This document shows, in pieces, positions 19,064 through 64,000 of a DNA stretch of 64,000 nt. A model generated the notes under the pieces. The model was given only the letters and a program-made list of their open reading frames with translations. It was not told where the DNA came from and made no database searches. Location of the stretch: NCBI RefSeq assembly GCF_003574655.1, contig NZ_QNUM01000004.1, positions 248,001-312,000 on the forward strand, in the 5' to 3' direction. The stretch is from Cohaesibacter haloalkalitolerans. GTDB taxonomy: Bacteria; Pseudomonadota; Alphaproteobacteria; Rhizobiales; Cohaesibacteraceae. Within the stretch, counting starts at the first letter, position 1. Every line of letters starts with the position of its first letter. Position numbers and translations under genes: made by a program.

Positions 19064-19284
19064 GTCGATCCCTTCCGCCAAACCAGCCATTTGATCCGGT
19101 GTTACACGATTCTTGCCCGATGGAATATGAAAGAAGCAAGGCGTGCAAGCCGTTTGCCAAACGGCTGGGAAACGACACCGGCCGCTCGCGGACACCGCGC
19201 AGATACGACGTCACAGCGTATCCCCGCCACACGCCCCTTCCCACAGGGGAAATGCACATCATGCGGATAGTTCGGATTTCCCAC

Positions 19285-19313
19285 TTTAAATTTGCAGAAC
19301 GCCACCCTATATT
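19285..19313 (+). promoter_or_regulatory. Putative ssrA promoter
   Basis: TTTAAA, 17-base spacer, TATATT, placing the start at about 19319-19320. The -35 is weak. Confidence 0.4.
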
Positions 19314-19318
19314 CGCGT

Positions 19319-19690
19319 TGTCACGCAAGTGACTATGGCAATAAATGGCCTTTGTAATAAGCCTATCGGACCCGGGGGCGGTACCCGGCGCCTCCACCAA
19401 AAGCATCGTTTCGCCAACCGGCGGTTCGGGGCGGTGTTTTTGCTGGGGGCGAAATAGGATCGACGAGGGTGTAAAGATCGTGTTTTTGCTCGGCATTGTA
19501 CCACCGTTATCGGGCTACTTGAGTAGTTGCAAATGACAACTATGCAGGCTCTCGTCTCGCTGCTGCTTAAGCAGTGCGACTAGCCACATAAAGCCCTAGC
19601 CGGTATGCTCGGTTAGGCGGGGTTCGGGGGCACCTGGCAACAGAAGCCCTCACCGAACCGCGAGTTTGCGACTGGATAAAGTGGCAACGG
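19319..19690 (+). ncRNA. ssrA: Two-piece (circularly permuted) tmRNA
   Basis: Rescues stalled ribosomes and tags the product for ClpXP. Alphaproteobacterial permuted layout: the acceptor piece comes first, with GACCCGGGGGCGGTACC and the encoded CCA end at 19397-19399. An intervening loop of about 45 bases is expected to be removed. The coding piece then starts GGGGGCGAAATAGGATCGACGA at 19445. The two acceptor arms pair: GGGGGCG (19445-19451) with CGCCTCC (19389-19395), with one G-U. The tag is at 19529-19570. A GCAA-tetraloop hairpin (19321-19332) opens the transcript. Both outer ends are estimates; mature ends cannot be set by eye. Confidence 0.9.
19529..19570 (+). other. tmRNA proteolysis-tag reading frame
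   Basis: Resume codon GCA, then codons for ANDNYAGSRLAAA and TAA. The ANDNYA start is usual for alphaproteobacteria. The GSR middle and the Ala-Ala-Ala end are a mild variant of the common LAA/VAA ending read by ClpX. The SspB-binding part is the N-terminal half. Confidence 0.88.
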
Positions 19691-33123: not shown

Positions 33124-33192
33124 GCCTTGCCGCTTGCCATTGCGGCTGCGAAGGTCTATCGACGTGCCAGATTTCAGGAACAAGAGGGAACC

Positions 33193-34065
33193 ATGCCCCA
33201 ATATCTTTATGCCGAAGGCCCCATCAAGGACATTCAGACCGCAGCCGACCATCTGCAGAAGGTCTTCGAGGAAGATGGCTTTGCCATTTCCAACTTCGAG
33301 GTTGATGAGGATCGCGGCATCTGGGCCCTCTCCCTCTATCCGTCCGACGAGCAGATGAGCGATGTCTATCGCACCACCCTTGCGGAACTTTCTGCCCTGT
33401 CAATGGCGCTACCGCTCCGCACGGAAGAGCTGGCCGATGTCGACTGGGTGACGAAAAGCCTTGAAGGTCTGGTACCGGTGGAAGCCGGACGCTTCATCAT
33501 CCATGGTTCCCATGATCGTGGCCTCGACACAAAGGGCCGGATTCCGGTGCAGATCAACGCCGGGCAGGCGTTTGGTACGGGCCACCATGGCACCACCGCC
33601 GGATGTCTGAAGGTTCTGAGTGAAGAGCTGCGCCGCTTCCATCCCCTGCGGCTGCTTGATCTGGGCACAGGGTCTGCGGTTCTGGCCATTGCGCTGGCCA
33701 AATTGCTCAAACAGGAGATCGTCGCAACCGACATCGACCCGATCTCCATTGAGACCGCCAATGAAAACATACGCATCAACGAGGTGCAACCGTTCGTCAA
33801 AACCGCGGTTGCAGCCGGTTTCAGCCATCAGATTTTTGCGAAAAAAGGCCCGTTTGACCTGATCGTTGCCAATATTCTTGCCGGGCCACTGTGCAAGATG
33901 GCCCCGGAAATGGCCAGGCACATTGCCAGAGGTGGACGCGTCATCCTGTCGGGCCTGCTGCCGCATCAACGCGCACGCGTTCTTGCTGCCTACCGGCTGC
34001 AAGGTCTGCGTCACGTCAGAACAATCAAGGAAGATGGGTGGTTGGTTCTGGTCCTGGAACGATAA
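33193..34065 (+). CDS. prmA: Ribosomal protein L11 methyltransferase
   Basis: 290 residues from the ATG at 33193 (GAGGGAA upstream). SAM-dependent methylation of L11. N-terminal substrate-binding domain (about 1-95), then the Rossmann methyltransferase: QAFGTGHHGTTAGCL, motif I LLDLGTGSAVLAIALAKL, TDIDPISIETANENI, and the N-methyltransferase NPPF-like site as LIVANILAGPL, which is the PrmA form. It ends with the usual SGLL...DGWLVLVLER. Probably cotranscribed with the helicase gene. Confidence 0.95.
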   Translation: MPQYLYAEGPIKDIQTAADHLQKVFEEDGFAISNFEVDEDRGIWALSLYPSDEQMSDVYRTTLAELSALSMALPLRTEELADVDWVTKSLEGLVPVEAGRFIIHGSHDRGLDTKGRIPVQINAGQAFGTGHHGTTAGCLKVLSEELRRFHPLRLLDLGTGSAVLAIALAKLLKQEIVATDIDPISIETANENIRINEVQPFVKTAVAAGFSHQIFAKKGPFDLIVANILAGPLCKMAPEMARHIARGGRVILSGLLPHQRARVLAAYRLQGLRHVRTIKEDGWLVLVLER

Positions 34066-34126: not shown

Positions 34127-34180
34127 TCCCCCCAAGGGGGATGCATAAAATGGCCTTTTGCCTCTTTCATGCGAATGGAC

Positions 34181-34210
34181 ACTTGAGCTTCCCCGTAGGG
34201 AAGTTCAAGT
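34181..34210 (-). other. 3' hairpin right after the 42-codon small gene
   Basis: ACTTGA-a-CTTCCC-TACG-GGGAAG-c-TCAAGT, a 12-pair stem with one mismatch, four bases past the stop codon. There is no U-tract. Likely protects the short mRNA from 3' decay. Confidence 0.6.
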
Positions 34211-34213
34211 GGA

Positions 34214-34342
34214 TTATTTGTCGTTGTTGTCGCGAGCAGAGAAAACTTCAGAGAAGTTCGGGGAGTAGAGTTCGATGTAAGAACGAGCTTCGGCTTCACG
34301 AGCTGCGATCATACGTTCGAAAGCATTGCTGAGGATGGACAT
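34214..34342 (-). CDS. Uncharacterised small protein A (42 residues)
   Basis: Begins MSILSNAFERMIAAREAEA and continues with RSYIELYSPNF to a polar end, DNNDK. Function not recognised. It is judged real for several reasons. There is a strong ribosome site (AAGGAAAAATCA before the ATG). Codon choice leans to GCT, CGT, GAA, AAC and TTC, unlike the GCC/CGC-rich neighbours, as in highly expressed genes. A GGTCGA/TCGACC hairpin lies in the leader and a stable hairpin right after the stop. A paralogue with the same xxxIAAREexAxxYxxxY core lies 350 bases upstream on the same strand. One amphipathic helix (about 6-26) is likely; no TM or signal peptide. Confidence 0.72.
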   Translation of the reverse strand: MSILSNAFERMIAAREAEARSYIELYSPNFSEVFSARDNNDK

Positions 34343-34364
34343 TGATTTTTCCTTTTCATCATCC

Positions 34365-34381
34365 GGTCGATCTTCTCGACC
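34365..34381 (-). promoter_or_regulatory. 5' UTR hairpin of small gene A
   Basis: GGTCGA-GAAGA-TCGACC, ending about 22 bases before the ATG and close to the AAGGAAAA ribosome site. Upstream, TATATAAC near 34400 may be the -10. Confidence 0.45.
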
Positions 34382-34539
34382 TCTTTCTTATACCAAAGTT
34401 ATATAGCAAATCTGCTTAGTAAGAAAATGCACAGTTTCTCACGACAGCCACGGCAAAAGTGCATGGCATGACACTTAGCTATGTCAGTCGCACTGCGGTT
34501 CGGGACTCTCGGAGAGGCATTTCTCCAGTTCGCCAAAAC

Positions 34540-34572
34540 ACAAAAACAAAAAAAGCGGGCCGAAACCCGCTT
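34540..34572 (-). terminator. Terminator of small gene B
   Basis: AAGCGGG-TTTCGG-CCCGCTT followed on the minus strand by TTTTTGTTTTTG. Strong intrinsic terminator that makes gene B a separate transcript from gene A. Confidence 0.85.
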
Positions 34573-34620
34573 GTTTTCATGGAGTTTTATTTGGGACGGC
34601 TTATCTCCTCCCGTCCGAAA

Positions 34621-34679
34621 CTTCTCTGGATGACCAAGCAAATGTCTTCTACGCAATTTTTCGTAGATCATCCGAGAAG
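34621..34679 (-). other. Structured 3' element of small gene B
   Basis: Transcript arms CTTCTC-GGATGA-TCTACG pair in order with CGTAGA, TCATCC and GAGAAG. The inner TCTACG/CGTAGA hairpin is offset from the outer 12 pairs by a bulge of about 14 bases. It starts 11 bases after the stop codon and lies before the terminator. There is no coding potential. Confidence 0.6.
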
Positions 34680-34690
34680 CCTCACGGCGA

Positions 34691-34825
34691 TTAGCCGCGA
34701 GGATCGTTGGTCAGGTCGATGAAAGAGCCGAGGCCACGTTCGGACATGTATTCGTCAACGTAACGCTGAGCCTGTTCTTCACGAGCAGCGATAACTTTTT
34801 CCAGAGCACGGTTAAAGAAGTTCAT
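34691..34825 (-). CDS. Uncharacterised small protein B (44 residues), paralogue of A
   Basis: Begins MNFFNRALEKVIAAREEQA, then QRYVDEYMSERGLGSF and ends LTNDPRG. It shares with protein A the hydrophobic start and the IAAREexAxxY block. Strong ribosome site (AAAGGAAATTACA before ATG). Codons such as CGT, GCT, CTG, GAA, TAC and AAC indicate high expression. Monocistronic: own leader of 100 bases or more towards the aminopeptidase gene, a structured 3' element and a strong terminator. The ARExQAxxYV core faintly recalls other short uncharacterised alphaproteobacterial proteins (memory only). No function proposed. Confidence 0.78.
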   Translation of the reverse strand: MNFFNRALEKVIAAREEQAQRYVDEYMSERGLGSFIDLTNDPRG

Positions 34826-35142
34826 TGTAATTTCCTTTCTTCTCATCGGTGATTGATCTGTTTGATCTATGTCATGGAATATGGTCCACCTGGAGCAATT
34901 CAAAAAGGCCCAATACATCAAAACAGTAATGCGTTTTGTGCATAGCGCGATTTTGAGTCCATATGATTGCGCAAATATGCAAGAGCAATGAATTATTAAA
35001 TCCCTGTCAACCGACGCGACTGCCCTTGCTCGAACCACACAAATTTGGCACTGTTGTCCAACCATCCATCATATCTGGACTCATCACCGGACAGACGCGG
35101 AGCCGGATTCCGCCCCGCCAGGTTTCCTTTAGGAAAGTTCTA

Positions 35143-36960
35143 ATGTTTCAAGAATTTAGCAACACCGCGAACCCCGAACAAGGCCGGCTGCGGATCCCCT
35201 TGCTGCGGGCGCATCTGCAAGAAGCCGGACTGGATGGCTACATCATGTCCCGCGCCGACGAGTTTGGCGGTGAAAACATGGCTCCCTATGCCGAGCGGCT
35301 TGCTTGGCTCACCGGCTTCACCGGGTCGGCGGGCAGCGCAGTCATTCTCAAGGACAAGGCCGCCATCTTTGTGGATGGGCGTTATACCCTGCAAGTTCAG
35401 GATCAGGTCGATGCCGAATTGATCACACCTGTCGCCATTCTGTCAAAATCGGTTGCCGAATGGCTCGCCGAAACCCTTCAGGGCGGCGAGGTCATCGGAT
35501 TCGATCCGTGGCTCTACACCCAGAGCGCCGTCGACCGGTTTGAGAAGACATGCAAGGAAAAGGGGGCAACCCTTGTTGCCTGCAAGAGCAATCCGGTGGA
35601 TGCGATCTGGACCGACCGGCCAAGCCGCCCCCAGAACCCCATCCTGCCCCACCCGCGGGAACTGGCTGGCGAAGCCTCAACGGATAAGCTCGACAAGATT
35701 GCTGCGGGCTTTGCGGCCAAGGCGGATGCGACCTTCATCACGCAGGGCGACAGCATAGCCTGGCTGTTCAACATCCGTGGCAGTGATGTGGCCTGCGCAC
35801 CCTTGCCGCTGGCCTTTGCCATCGTGCGCGCCGACGGCAGCGCCTATCTGCTGACCGATCTGGCCAAGCTGCCGGAGGAAACCCGCACCCACCTCCCCGC
35901 TTCGGTTACCATTGCACCGTTTGAAGAGCTGCCAAACCTGATCAAGTCGCTGTCCGGCGCCAACAAGACATGGATGCTGGACGAGACCCTCGTGCCTTAT
36001 GCGATCAAGACAATGATCGAGGATGCCGGCTCGCGCATCCTCAACGCCTCCGATCCCTGCCTCAAGCCCAAAGCCGTCAAGAATGCCGCCGAGCTTTCAG
36101 GCATGCGCAAAGCGCATCATCGGGATGGGGTGGCCATGTGCCACTTCCTGCACTGGCTCGACACCATGGCCCCAACCGACACCCTCGACGAGATCACGGC
36201 AACCAAGGCGCTGGAAGATTTCCGCGCTGAAACCGGCTGCCTCAAGGACATCTCCTTTGACACCATCGCCGGAGCAGGCCCCAACGGCGCCATCGTCCAC
36301 TATCATGTCACCGAGGCCACCAACCGCAAGTTCGTGCAGAACTCGCTGTTCCTTGTCGATTCCGGCGGACAGTATCCGGATGGCACCACCGACATCACCC
36401 GCACGATTGCCATCGGCACGCCCGACGCGGAGATGAAGGACCGGTTCACCCGCGTGCTCAAGGGCATGATCGCCCTGACGCTGGCCCGCTTCCCTGAAGG
36501 CACCAAGGGCATCCAGCTCGACACGCTGGCCCGCCAGCCGCTTTGGGAGGTCGGGCTTGACTATGCGCATGGCACGGGCCATGGCGTTGGCTCCTATCTT
36601 TGCTGCCATGAGGGGCCGCAGAGCATTTCCAAGCGGGGTGGCGCGGCGCTTGAGGCCGGCAATGTTCTGTCCAACGAACCCGGCTACTACAAAACCGGCG
36701 CCTGGGGGATTCGCATCGAGAATCTGGTCACGGTCACCGAGGCCAAAGCGATGGAAGGGGGCGAATTGCCGATGCATGGCTTTGAAACCCTGACGCTCTG
36801 CCCGATTGATCAGCGCCTCATCGAGGTCTCTTTGCTAACCGCCAGGGAAATCAACTGGCTCAATGATTATCACGAAGAGGTCTTTGCCGAGCTGTCCGCA
36901 GAGCTGCCGGAGGACGTGCGCGCCTGGTTGGCCGAAGCAACCAAACCCCTGCACGCATGA
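35143..36960 (+). CDS. Xaa-Pro aminopeptidase (peptidase M24B)
   Basis: 605 residues from the ATG at 35143 (AGGAAAG upstream); the open frame extends 60 codons further up but without protein-like sequence. Metallo-exopeptidase that removes an N-terminal residue before proline. Long eukaryote-like form: creatinase N-domain 1 (about 20-150, GLDGYIMSRADEF, LTGFTGSAGSAVI, FVDGRYTLQVQDQV), N-domain 2 (about 160-310), M24 catalytic domain (about 320-540) and M24_C tail. Metal ligands: VDSGGQYPDGTTDITR (two Asp), HGTGHGVGSYLCCHEGP (His), and two Glu in SNEPGYY and IRIENLVTV. Cytosolic. Divergent from small gene B. Confidence 0.95.
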   Translation: MFQEFSNTANPEQGRLRIPLLRAHLQEAGLDGYIMSRADEFGGENMAPYAERLAWLTGFTGSAGSAVILKDKAAIFVDGRYTLQVQDQVDAELITPVAILSKSVAEWLAETLQGGEVIGFDPWLYTQSAVDRFEKTCKEKGATLVACKSNPVDAIWTDRPSRPQNPILPHPRELAGEASTDKLDKIAAGFAAKADATFITQGDSIAWLFNIRGSDVACAPLPLAFAIVRADGSAYLLTDLAKLPEETRTHLPASVTIAPFEELPNLIKSLSGANKTWMLDETLVPYAIKTMIEDAGSRILNASDPCLKPKAVKNAAELSGMRKAHHRDGVAMCHFLHWLDTMAPTDTLDEITATKALEDFRAETGCLKDISFDTIAGAGPNGAIVHYHVTEATNRKFVQNSLFLVDSGGQYPDGTTDITRTIAIGTPDAEMKDRFTRVLKGMIALTLARFPEGTKGIQLDTLARQPLWEVGLDYAHGTGHGVGSYLCCHEGPQSISKRGGAALEAGNVLSNEPGYYKTGAWGIRIENLVTVTEAKAMEGGELPMHGFETLTLCPIDQRLIEVSLLTAREINWLNDYHEEVFAELSAELPEDVRAWLAEATKPLHA

Positions 36961-63608: not shown

Positions 63609-63807
63609 ACAAAGAGTTGTTAAAAAGAAGGAAACGAGAGGGCAAAGAATTAGGGACGGGATAAGTATTTTGGCAATGACAGCCCAATCCGGAACCGCCT
63701 TGGCGACAAAAACCGCACACTGCTGAAGCAAATCAGCAGCGGCATGGAGAAAAGGATCTCCATTTCGTTAGCAACGACGAGAATTCCGGAGATTTTGGGA
63801 AGAAAAA

Positions 63808-64000
63808 TACCAGTCGGTCTATAAGCCGGGTTTTGTACGGCAAGAACAAAGTCTCGCGTGGCAACCATTCATCTGCGACACCCATTGCTGAATGTCTCTA
63901 GCAACCCACCCGAATGACTGGCCTGAAAGCCGACTGAGCTTGCGCTCGCGCCATTCCTATTCGGTTTTGCTCCCGGTGGGGTTTACCCTGCCACCTTCAT
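63808..64000 (-). ncRNA. rnpB: RNase P RNA (3' part; runs off the right edge)
   Basis: Catalytic RNA for tRNA 5' maturation, bacterial type A. Read on the minus strand, GGTGGCAGGGTAAACCCCACC (the tRNA CCA-binding P15 loop region) is followed by GGGAGCAAAACCGAATAGG. It ends with ACAAAACCCGGCTTATAGACC and GACTGG, the conserved 3' end, then a T-rich run (TATTTTTC). The 5' half lies beyond the window. Confidence 0.92.

Follow-up and report, generated by a model that had tools for sequence, protein, structure and literature searches.

The LysR-type regulator LsrB is redox-responsive and, in the excerpts available of the papers concerned, is reported only from the order Hyphomicrobiales, in other members of which LsrB/VtlR controls AbcR small RNAs as well as small proteins (PMC11975290, PMC8844928, PMC7486931, PMC12595884). 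The small-protein targets named in the available parts of two of these papers (PMC7486931, PMC12595884), including Atu1667 of Agrobacterium and BAB1_0914 and BAB2_0512 of Brucella, are DUF1127 proteins. As described in excerpts of a further paper, small DUF1127 proteins bind the sensor kinase PhoR, and CcaF1, a DUF1127 protein of Rhodobacter, is RNA-binding and arginine-rich (PMC12501420). The VtlR/LsrB box is given as GCAT-N3-TG-N3-T in the accessible text of PMC7486931, and that of PMC8844928 places an LsrB box at -61 to -49 of AbcR1 in S. meliloti, together with a CTATAT -10 element.

We examined two very small genes, here called P1 and P2, in a stretch of 64,000 nucleotides (hereafter the window) from the alphaproteobacterium Cohaesibacter haloalkalitolerans. 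Judged by their sequences, they appear to resemble the small LsrB/VtlR-controlled proteins, and by the tests applied would not be counted as members of DUF1127. The whole reading that we favour, and consider reasonably probable, is that LsrB controls P1 and P2 as effectors of its regulon, helical proteins made in large amounts that probably bind a protein partner.

Two small genes at a conserved genomic address

An earlier note, made from the letters of this DNA alone, had described two minus-strand genes of 42 and 44 codons between prmA and an aminopeptidase gene, and both open reading frames were confirmed there (Table 1). The neighbouring M24 aminopeptidase gene also encodes creatinase N-terminal domains, and an NCBIfam scan returned no equivalog over cut-off for it. 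Alignment of P1 with P2 bears out the shared IAARE block that had been noticed, as IAARE-x-x-A-x-x-Y, and the ribosome site ascribed to each gene is found as AAAGG, 9-13 nt ahead of both ATG codons. The further statement that each gene has its own hairpins and terminator holds entirely for P2, where a long hairpin (fold z -3.7) lies between the gene and a canonical terminator; for P1 the hairpin stands and the terminator does not, there being no T-run. Two structural RNAs were also located elsewhere in the window, an alphaproteobacterial tmRNA at 19281-19654 (+) and an RNase P RNA at 63806-64000 (-), the latter cut by the window end.

Table 1. Features of the P1/P2 locus, in window coordinates
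Feature	Position	Strand	Basis or remark
prmA, conserved convergent neighbour	33127-34065	+	PF06325 E 8e-58; NCBIfam L11 methyltransferase over cut-off
14-pair hairpin directly after P1 stop, without T-run on the P1 strand	34180-34211	-	conserved (nine-genome alignment)
P1 small-protein gene, 42 aa, MSILSNAFERMIAAREAEARSYIELYSPNFSEVFSARDNNDK	34214-34342	-	ORF
P1 ribosome site AAAGG	34351-34355	-	sequence; mostly conserved (alignment, nine Cohaesibacter genomes)
P1 -10 region GCTATATAACTTTGGTATAAG	34387-34407	-	nearly invariant in nine Cohaesibacter genomes
P1 predicted weaker LsrB/VtlR site	34441-34464	-	10/12; combined 14/18, spacing 35
P2 intrinsic terminator AAGCGGGTTTCGGCCCGCTT, then T-run	34553-34572 (34572-34553 on its strand)	-	conserved in nine genomes
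P2 small-protein gene, 44 aa, MNFFNRALEKVIAAREEQAQRYVDEYMSERGLGSFIDLTNDPRG	34691-34825	-	ORF
P2 ribosome site AAAGG	34834-34838	-	sequence; conserved (alignment, nine Cohaesibacter genomes)
P2 predicted -10 element CATATT	34878-34883	-	36 nt from predicted site
P2 predicted LsrB/VtlR site ATGCA-N6-GCAT-N3-TG-N3-T	34920-34943	-	12/12 match
M24-family aminopeptidase gene (aminopeptidase P type), conserved divergent neighbour	35143-36960, ATG 35143	+	PF00557, PF01321, PF16189, PF16188 over cut-off

The pair is not only a local duplication: P1 and P2 are two of five copies of the family in this genome, the others (C22, C11 and C16) being 77%, 63% and 48% identical to P2, respectively. Across the order, a profile built from eight relatives matched at E <= 0.01 in 132 of 297 genomes and 57 of 122 genera, the weakest of these matches including frames of more than 500 codons that may be chance. 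At 28 of the 30 best loci, one of which is the window, prmA and the aminopeptidase gene both occur within about 1.5 kb; the two exceptions have only the aminopeptidase gene (L050) or only prmA and uvrD (L056). Examination of 57 named loci, which may overlap in species with the order-wide sample and which include Stappia, Roseibium, Breoghania, Hoeflea, Rhizobium, Pararhizobium, Mesorhizobium, Nitratireductor, Ahrensia and Aurantimonas, showed the gene in 55 cases to be flanked by prmA and the M24 aminopeptidase gene and encoded on the strand opposite to both; one of the remaining loci is cut by a contig end (L123), and in the other prmA was not found in the 3 kb present (L079). Neither Pfam nor NCBIfam has a model for the family, P1, P2 and their relatives giving only weak, inconsistent matches below cut-off, and no paper on the small-gene locus between prmA and the aminopeptidase gene was found in the open-access literature. 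Having both an AREx[QE]A.RYV-type helix and this position and orientation, P1 and P2 are members of an unnamed Hyphomicrobiales family housed between prmA and the M24 aminopeptidase gene.

Coding status and predicted expression

Alignment of nine Cohaesibacter genomes reveals the signature of protein-coding sequence in both genes. Variable sites at the first, second and third codon positions number 16/7/28 in P1 and 5/6/16 in P2, and the pooled Nei-Gojobori dN/dS ratios are 0.22 and 0.12, respectively, values that are descriptive only, as genome pairs are not independent; a pN/pS as low was obtained in none of 300 column shuffles for either gene. The earlier note had proposed that frames lacking conservation, or nucleotides conserved without a codon pattern, would speak against its reading; what was found is conservation of the frames with a codon pattern. 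These results bear directly on the notion that the transcripts are regulatory RNAs acting through their 3' hairpins, with the peptides incidental. Strong, conserved 3' hairpins and a terminator are what such RNAs would have, and sRNAs are also under LsrB/VtlR according to the available text of PMC7486931, but the codon-position pattern, dN/dS ratios far below the column-shuffle null and conservation of the protein across the order make this explanation very unlikely.

Codon usage points in addition to strong translation. The codon adaptation index is 0.866 for P1, 0.891 for P2, 0.831 for C22, 0.781 for C11 and 0.670 for C16, compared with 0.652-0.786 for 15 mostly ribosomal reference genes of one region (which, from their sequences, we take to be 14 ribosomal proteins and one EF-Tu) and with a median of 0.559 and a maximum of 0.796 for 40 window genes. 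None of 20,000 random 43-codon stretches of window genes reached the values of P1 and P2. When the same peptides were recoded with the codon use of the window, the observed index was attained in none of 10,000 recodings for P1, P2 or C22, in 12 for C11 and in 1,043 for C16; the index and these recodings suggest very high expression of P1 and P2, but not of C16. The claim that both genes use codons unlike those of their neighbours is thereby upheld, since their indices exceed those of all 15 reference genes as well as the window median. We infer, with considerable confidence, that the P1 and P2 proteins are abundant. The broader picture of coding, duplicated genes with high predicted expression is likewise supported, by dN/dS, by the five copies and by codon adaptation.

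A predicted LsrB/VtlR site at the promoters

Conserved blocks lie 5' of both P1 and P2 in the nine-genome alignment of the interval between prmA and the aminopeptidase gene. The second half of the predicted P2 site is the published VtlR/LsrB box, matched exactly and 36 nt from the predicted -10 element, which is also the geometry of the box at -61 to -49 of AbcR1 in S. meliloti; the P1 site is weaker. Genome-wide, only two exact 12-base sites occur, that of P2 and one before the C11 paralog. A composite of site and -10 element was built on P2 itself and the published box, and P2 accordingly lends it no independent support. Tests were made on 71 upstream regions, relatives included, comprising those of 55 of the 57 named loci and 16 from the window genome and other genomes of the Cohaesibacter family. 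The palindrome ATGCA-N5-TGCAT is present at a level of at least 9/10 in 31 of the 71, where dinucleotide shuffles predict 1.5; taken by itself, the published box is matched perfectly in 6 regions (1.4 expected) and at no fewer than 6/7 positions in 47 (20 expected). A CATATT element (at least 5/6) comes exactly 36 nt after the best site in 24 regions, no other spacing between 15 and 74 accounting for more than 2. Site and -10 element together score at least 14/18 in 42 regions, with 0.3 expected; once similar regions are clustered, 33 of the resulting 60 still do. The remaining 29 of the 71 fall short of 14, and 15 do not exceed 12, low values being seen in Breoghania (L082, 10), Mesorhizobium (L120, 11), Aquamicrobium (L116, 11), Aurantimonas (L124, 12), Stappia sediminis (L109, 12) and the ORFs at the P2 position in G007 and G012 (11).

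Within the genome, with as many as 3 mismatches allowed, the 18-base composite matches at 10 places and its reversed control at none. The 10 are P2 (0 mismatches), C11 (1), C16 (2), C22 (3), an AbcR-like RNA considered below (3) and five others (3), one of which lies inside long ORFs (C21:400697). Of the 12-base site alone, matches with one mismatch number 12 (1 in the reversed control); the 6 inside ORFs of at least 100 aa were taken as chance, and one, L170, is upstream of another small ORF. Upstream of the genome's four own DUF1127 matches the combined scores are 13, 11, 12 and 12, which is within chance and gives no sign that DUF1127 genes are co-regulated in this genome. A separate observation concerns a small ORF of 48 codons, MFSEFFETTRHVIACLPAASRVAYDVEIGRQPDQADLEKLNVADVFPR, at locus L207 (G000:C17 about 353600-354700, -; ORF at 562 of the reverse strand), which is preceded by an 11/12 site with TATATT at 37 nt (combined 16/18) and is a candidate further LsrB target. 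Also apart from the predicted LsrB/VtlR sites, a dyad, CATAGC-N10-GCTATG, is found upstream of P1 (window 34462-34483), degenerate here and clearer in other Cohaesibacter; together with the nearly invariant TATATAACTTTGGTATAAG block at 34387-34407, it suggests a further regulator at the P1 promoter.

Because the predicted P2 site occupies intergenic space shared with the divergent aminopeptidase gene, it could in principle serve that gene, with the small genes as bystanders. Copies of the family dispersed elsewhere in other Cohaesibacter genomes tell against this: all 15 of those checked have a site at exactly 36 nt, with scores of 14-17, and neither prmA, uvrD nor the aminopeptidase gene was seen at these 15 loci or at the three dispersed loci of the window genome. 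The site accordingly belongs to the small gene, the -10 element also being on the small-gene side of it; the dispersed copies largely refute the aminopeptidase explanation, to which we give almost no credence. That LsrB binds and activates the P1 and P2 promoters is, from these predicted sites, very probable.

The same promoters bear on the role of the proteins, for which the earlier note had offered a structural, stress or regulatory function. An abundant structural or chaperone-like peptide, whose function resides in its amount and not in the specificity of a partner, would accord with codon adaptation above the ribosomal reference, five gene copies and a single helix; however, separate promoters, each with a predicted activator site, fit a regulated effector better, and the C16 copy is without strong codon bias. 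We regard such a peptide as improbable. As the promoters point to LsrB/VtlR, a regulatory or stress effector is favoured and the structural part of the earlier suggestion recedes.

The genome also contains a candidate for the regulator. An lsrB-like gene at C19:452541-453428 encodes a protein 59% identical to the LysR protein whose gene adjoins AbcR in a related genome (G042), its identity as lsrB resting on its place beside AbcR and on this similarity and not on a named sequence. Its counterparts were found in 275 of the 297 genomes, for which reason presence of the regulator cannot be correlated with presence of the family. Directly downstream, at C19:453586-453722 (+), is an AbcR-like RNA (RF02345) scoring 29.9 bits against a gathering score of 40; the match was not recovered at E <= 1e-4, and at E <= 1 the search also returned weak matches, none over cut-off, in 8 of 14 control genomes, so that the call leans on position beside lsrB. 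The predicted -10 of the composite site ends 7 nt before this match. In G042, the same site (16/18, 36-nt spacing) accompanies a strong AbcR match next to the LysR gene, and a second AbcR locus of that genome scores 16 at 37 nt. The predicted promoter plan of site, 36 nt and -10 element is thus common to P2 and to the AbcR1/ar15 (RF02345) matches beside the LysR gene in G042 and beside the lsrB-like gene of the window genome; the difference is that AbcR1 is a non-coding RNA and P1 and P2 are proteins, and that the window-genome RNA match is below the gathering score. Another sub-threshold AbcR-like match, of 35.5 bits, was recorded at C22:238181-238317 (-), about 3.5 kb from the C22 paralog, with a weak upstream site. 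What is new here is the predicted LsrB/VtlR box 36 nt before CATATT at promoters of this family and at the AbcR-like RNA.

Protein architecture and relationship to DUF1127

Canonical members of the family (54 counted) are 51-74 aa long; their N-terminus varies and leads into a helix whose motif, AREx[QE]ARRYV (AREKQARRYV), is nearly invariant, with a subsequent LLsLDDaTL..xGYdRxEL segment in most. Their C-terminal 26 columns align at 87% probability with a profile of 22 DUF1127 sequences, drawn from the window genome and related ones, column-permuted controls giving at most 6.8% (0 of 200 as high) and a reversed control 3.7%. P1 and P2 retain the helix without the DUF1127-like C-terminal segment (of the L..LDD..L.D.G..R.DI type), and neither matched PF06568 in a Pfam scan. 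Net charge is +1 to +5 in all 54 canonical members, compared with -2 in P1 and P2 and -2 or -3 across all five copies of the genome. The arginine-rich, positively charged character of DUF1127 is thus not found in P1 or P2, although this is a weak criterion, a 32-residue segment of one of the genome's own DUF1127 proteins also being net -2.

These features allow comparison with the described systems. Like the LsrB/VtlR-controlled DUF1127 proteins of Agrobacterium and Brucella (PMC7486931 and PMC12595884, in excerpt), P1 and P2 are very small Hyphomicrobiales proteins with an LsrB/VtlR promoter, predicted in the present case, and canonical members of their family share the DUF1127-like C-terminal segment. 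The family nonetheless differs by its N-terminal AREKQARRYV helix, its fixed place between prmA and the M24 aminopeptidase gene and its scores below the PF06568 cut-off, and the window copies differ further in being acidic and without the DUF1127-like segment. It could be argued that the family comprises RNA-binding proteins of the DUF1127 type, like CcaF1, of which P1 and P2 are shortened forms. The profile match and the uniformly positive charge of canonical members are in keeping with this idea. Only 2 of 40 canonical members match PF06568, however (best E 0.058), the genome has separate DUF1127 genes, and P1 and P2 share with CcaF1 small size and alphaproteobacterial origin but are net negative, lack the segment to which the DUF1127 similarity of canonical members is confined and match no DUF1127 model, the argument from charge again being a weak one. 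Such RNA-binding proteins are an unlikely explanation, slightly more so than the structural peptide weighed above. Another similarity of the canonical C-terminal motif, to repeat-bearing IcmE/DotG sequences in the PDB (E 7e-8), probably reflects a shared short helix-turn motif; the profile search matched only two PDB sequences, over a 20-column C-terminal stretch, and the match was treated as motif convergence.

A diverged C-terminus is also seen in members from Aurantimonas and Mangrovicella, and forms of graded length occur within Cohaesibacter. A 55-aa form ending in YLPF is present as a single copy in G010 and G017 and at the position of P1 in G015; intermediates of 50 aa and of 47 aa, the latter ending in DLPF, are found in G016 and G012, respectively; and nine core Cohaesibacter genomes have, at the P1 position, a form of 42 aa ending in RDNNDK or RDDNDK. 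Given these single-copy and intermediate forms in other Cohaesibacter, P2 is most simply viewed as a duplicate born inside the genus that then spread. ORFs of a different kind, beginning MSF[FL]SMLVGKDVQHIDGSVE, occupy the P2 position in G012 (L130) and G007 (L129); they are without the ARE block and have a promoter score of 11, which suggests strongly diverged copies or replacements.

An AlphaFold model of P2 comprises one helix, residues 2-30, and a loose tail, with blocks at pLDDT 81-93; the model of a canonical member is weak (mean pLDDT 67), and the amphipathicity of the helix is not beyond that of shuffles.

Proposed mode of action and implications

In the mechanism that we propose for P1 and P2 as LsrB-regulon effectors, each would be made, as a mostly alpha-helical protein, from its own short mRNA. 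The LysR-type regulator LsrB (VtlR in Brucella) would activate transcription through ATGCA-N6-GCAT-N3-TG-N3-T, 36 nt upstream of the -10 element, and the AbcR-like RNA beside the lsrB-like gene appears to follow the same promoter plan. Activation would yield much small helical protein from short, strongly translated messages. The N-terminal helix, AREx[Q/E]A.RYV, which hardly varies, would then be the active part of the protein; its target is most likely a protein partner, and binding of that partner may tune metabolism or stress physiology in concert with AbcR. A protein is the most likely target by analogy with the small DUF1127 proteins that bind PhoR, but the partner need not be PhoR, since the window proteins, at net -2, are opposite in charge to the arginine-rich DUF1127 proteins. 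Action by protein-protein contact, drawn from this analogy, is a possibility to which we would give a little less than an even chance.

A more specific and distinctly tentative proposal is that of a stand-alone effector helix. Cohaesibacter may have shed the DUF1127-like half of the protein, reversed its charge and multiplied the helix to up to five genes driven by LsrB, of which two surpass the ribosomal reference in codon use. On this view it would be the helix, through a partner shared with the AbcR network, and not the DUF1127 segment, that does the work in this family and perhaps in further small proteins under LsrB.

An order-wide family of small proteins without a Pfam or NCBIfam model can thus be given a set place in the genome, together with a predicted regulator and a promoter that can be tested. 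In this order LsrB/VtlR matters for the redox response and for interaction with hosts. With a second family predicted to belong to its circuit, and the DUF1127-like part dropped in one genus, the question of which part of these proteins does the work becomes testable.
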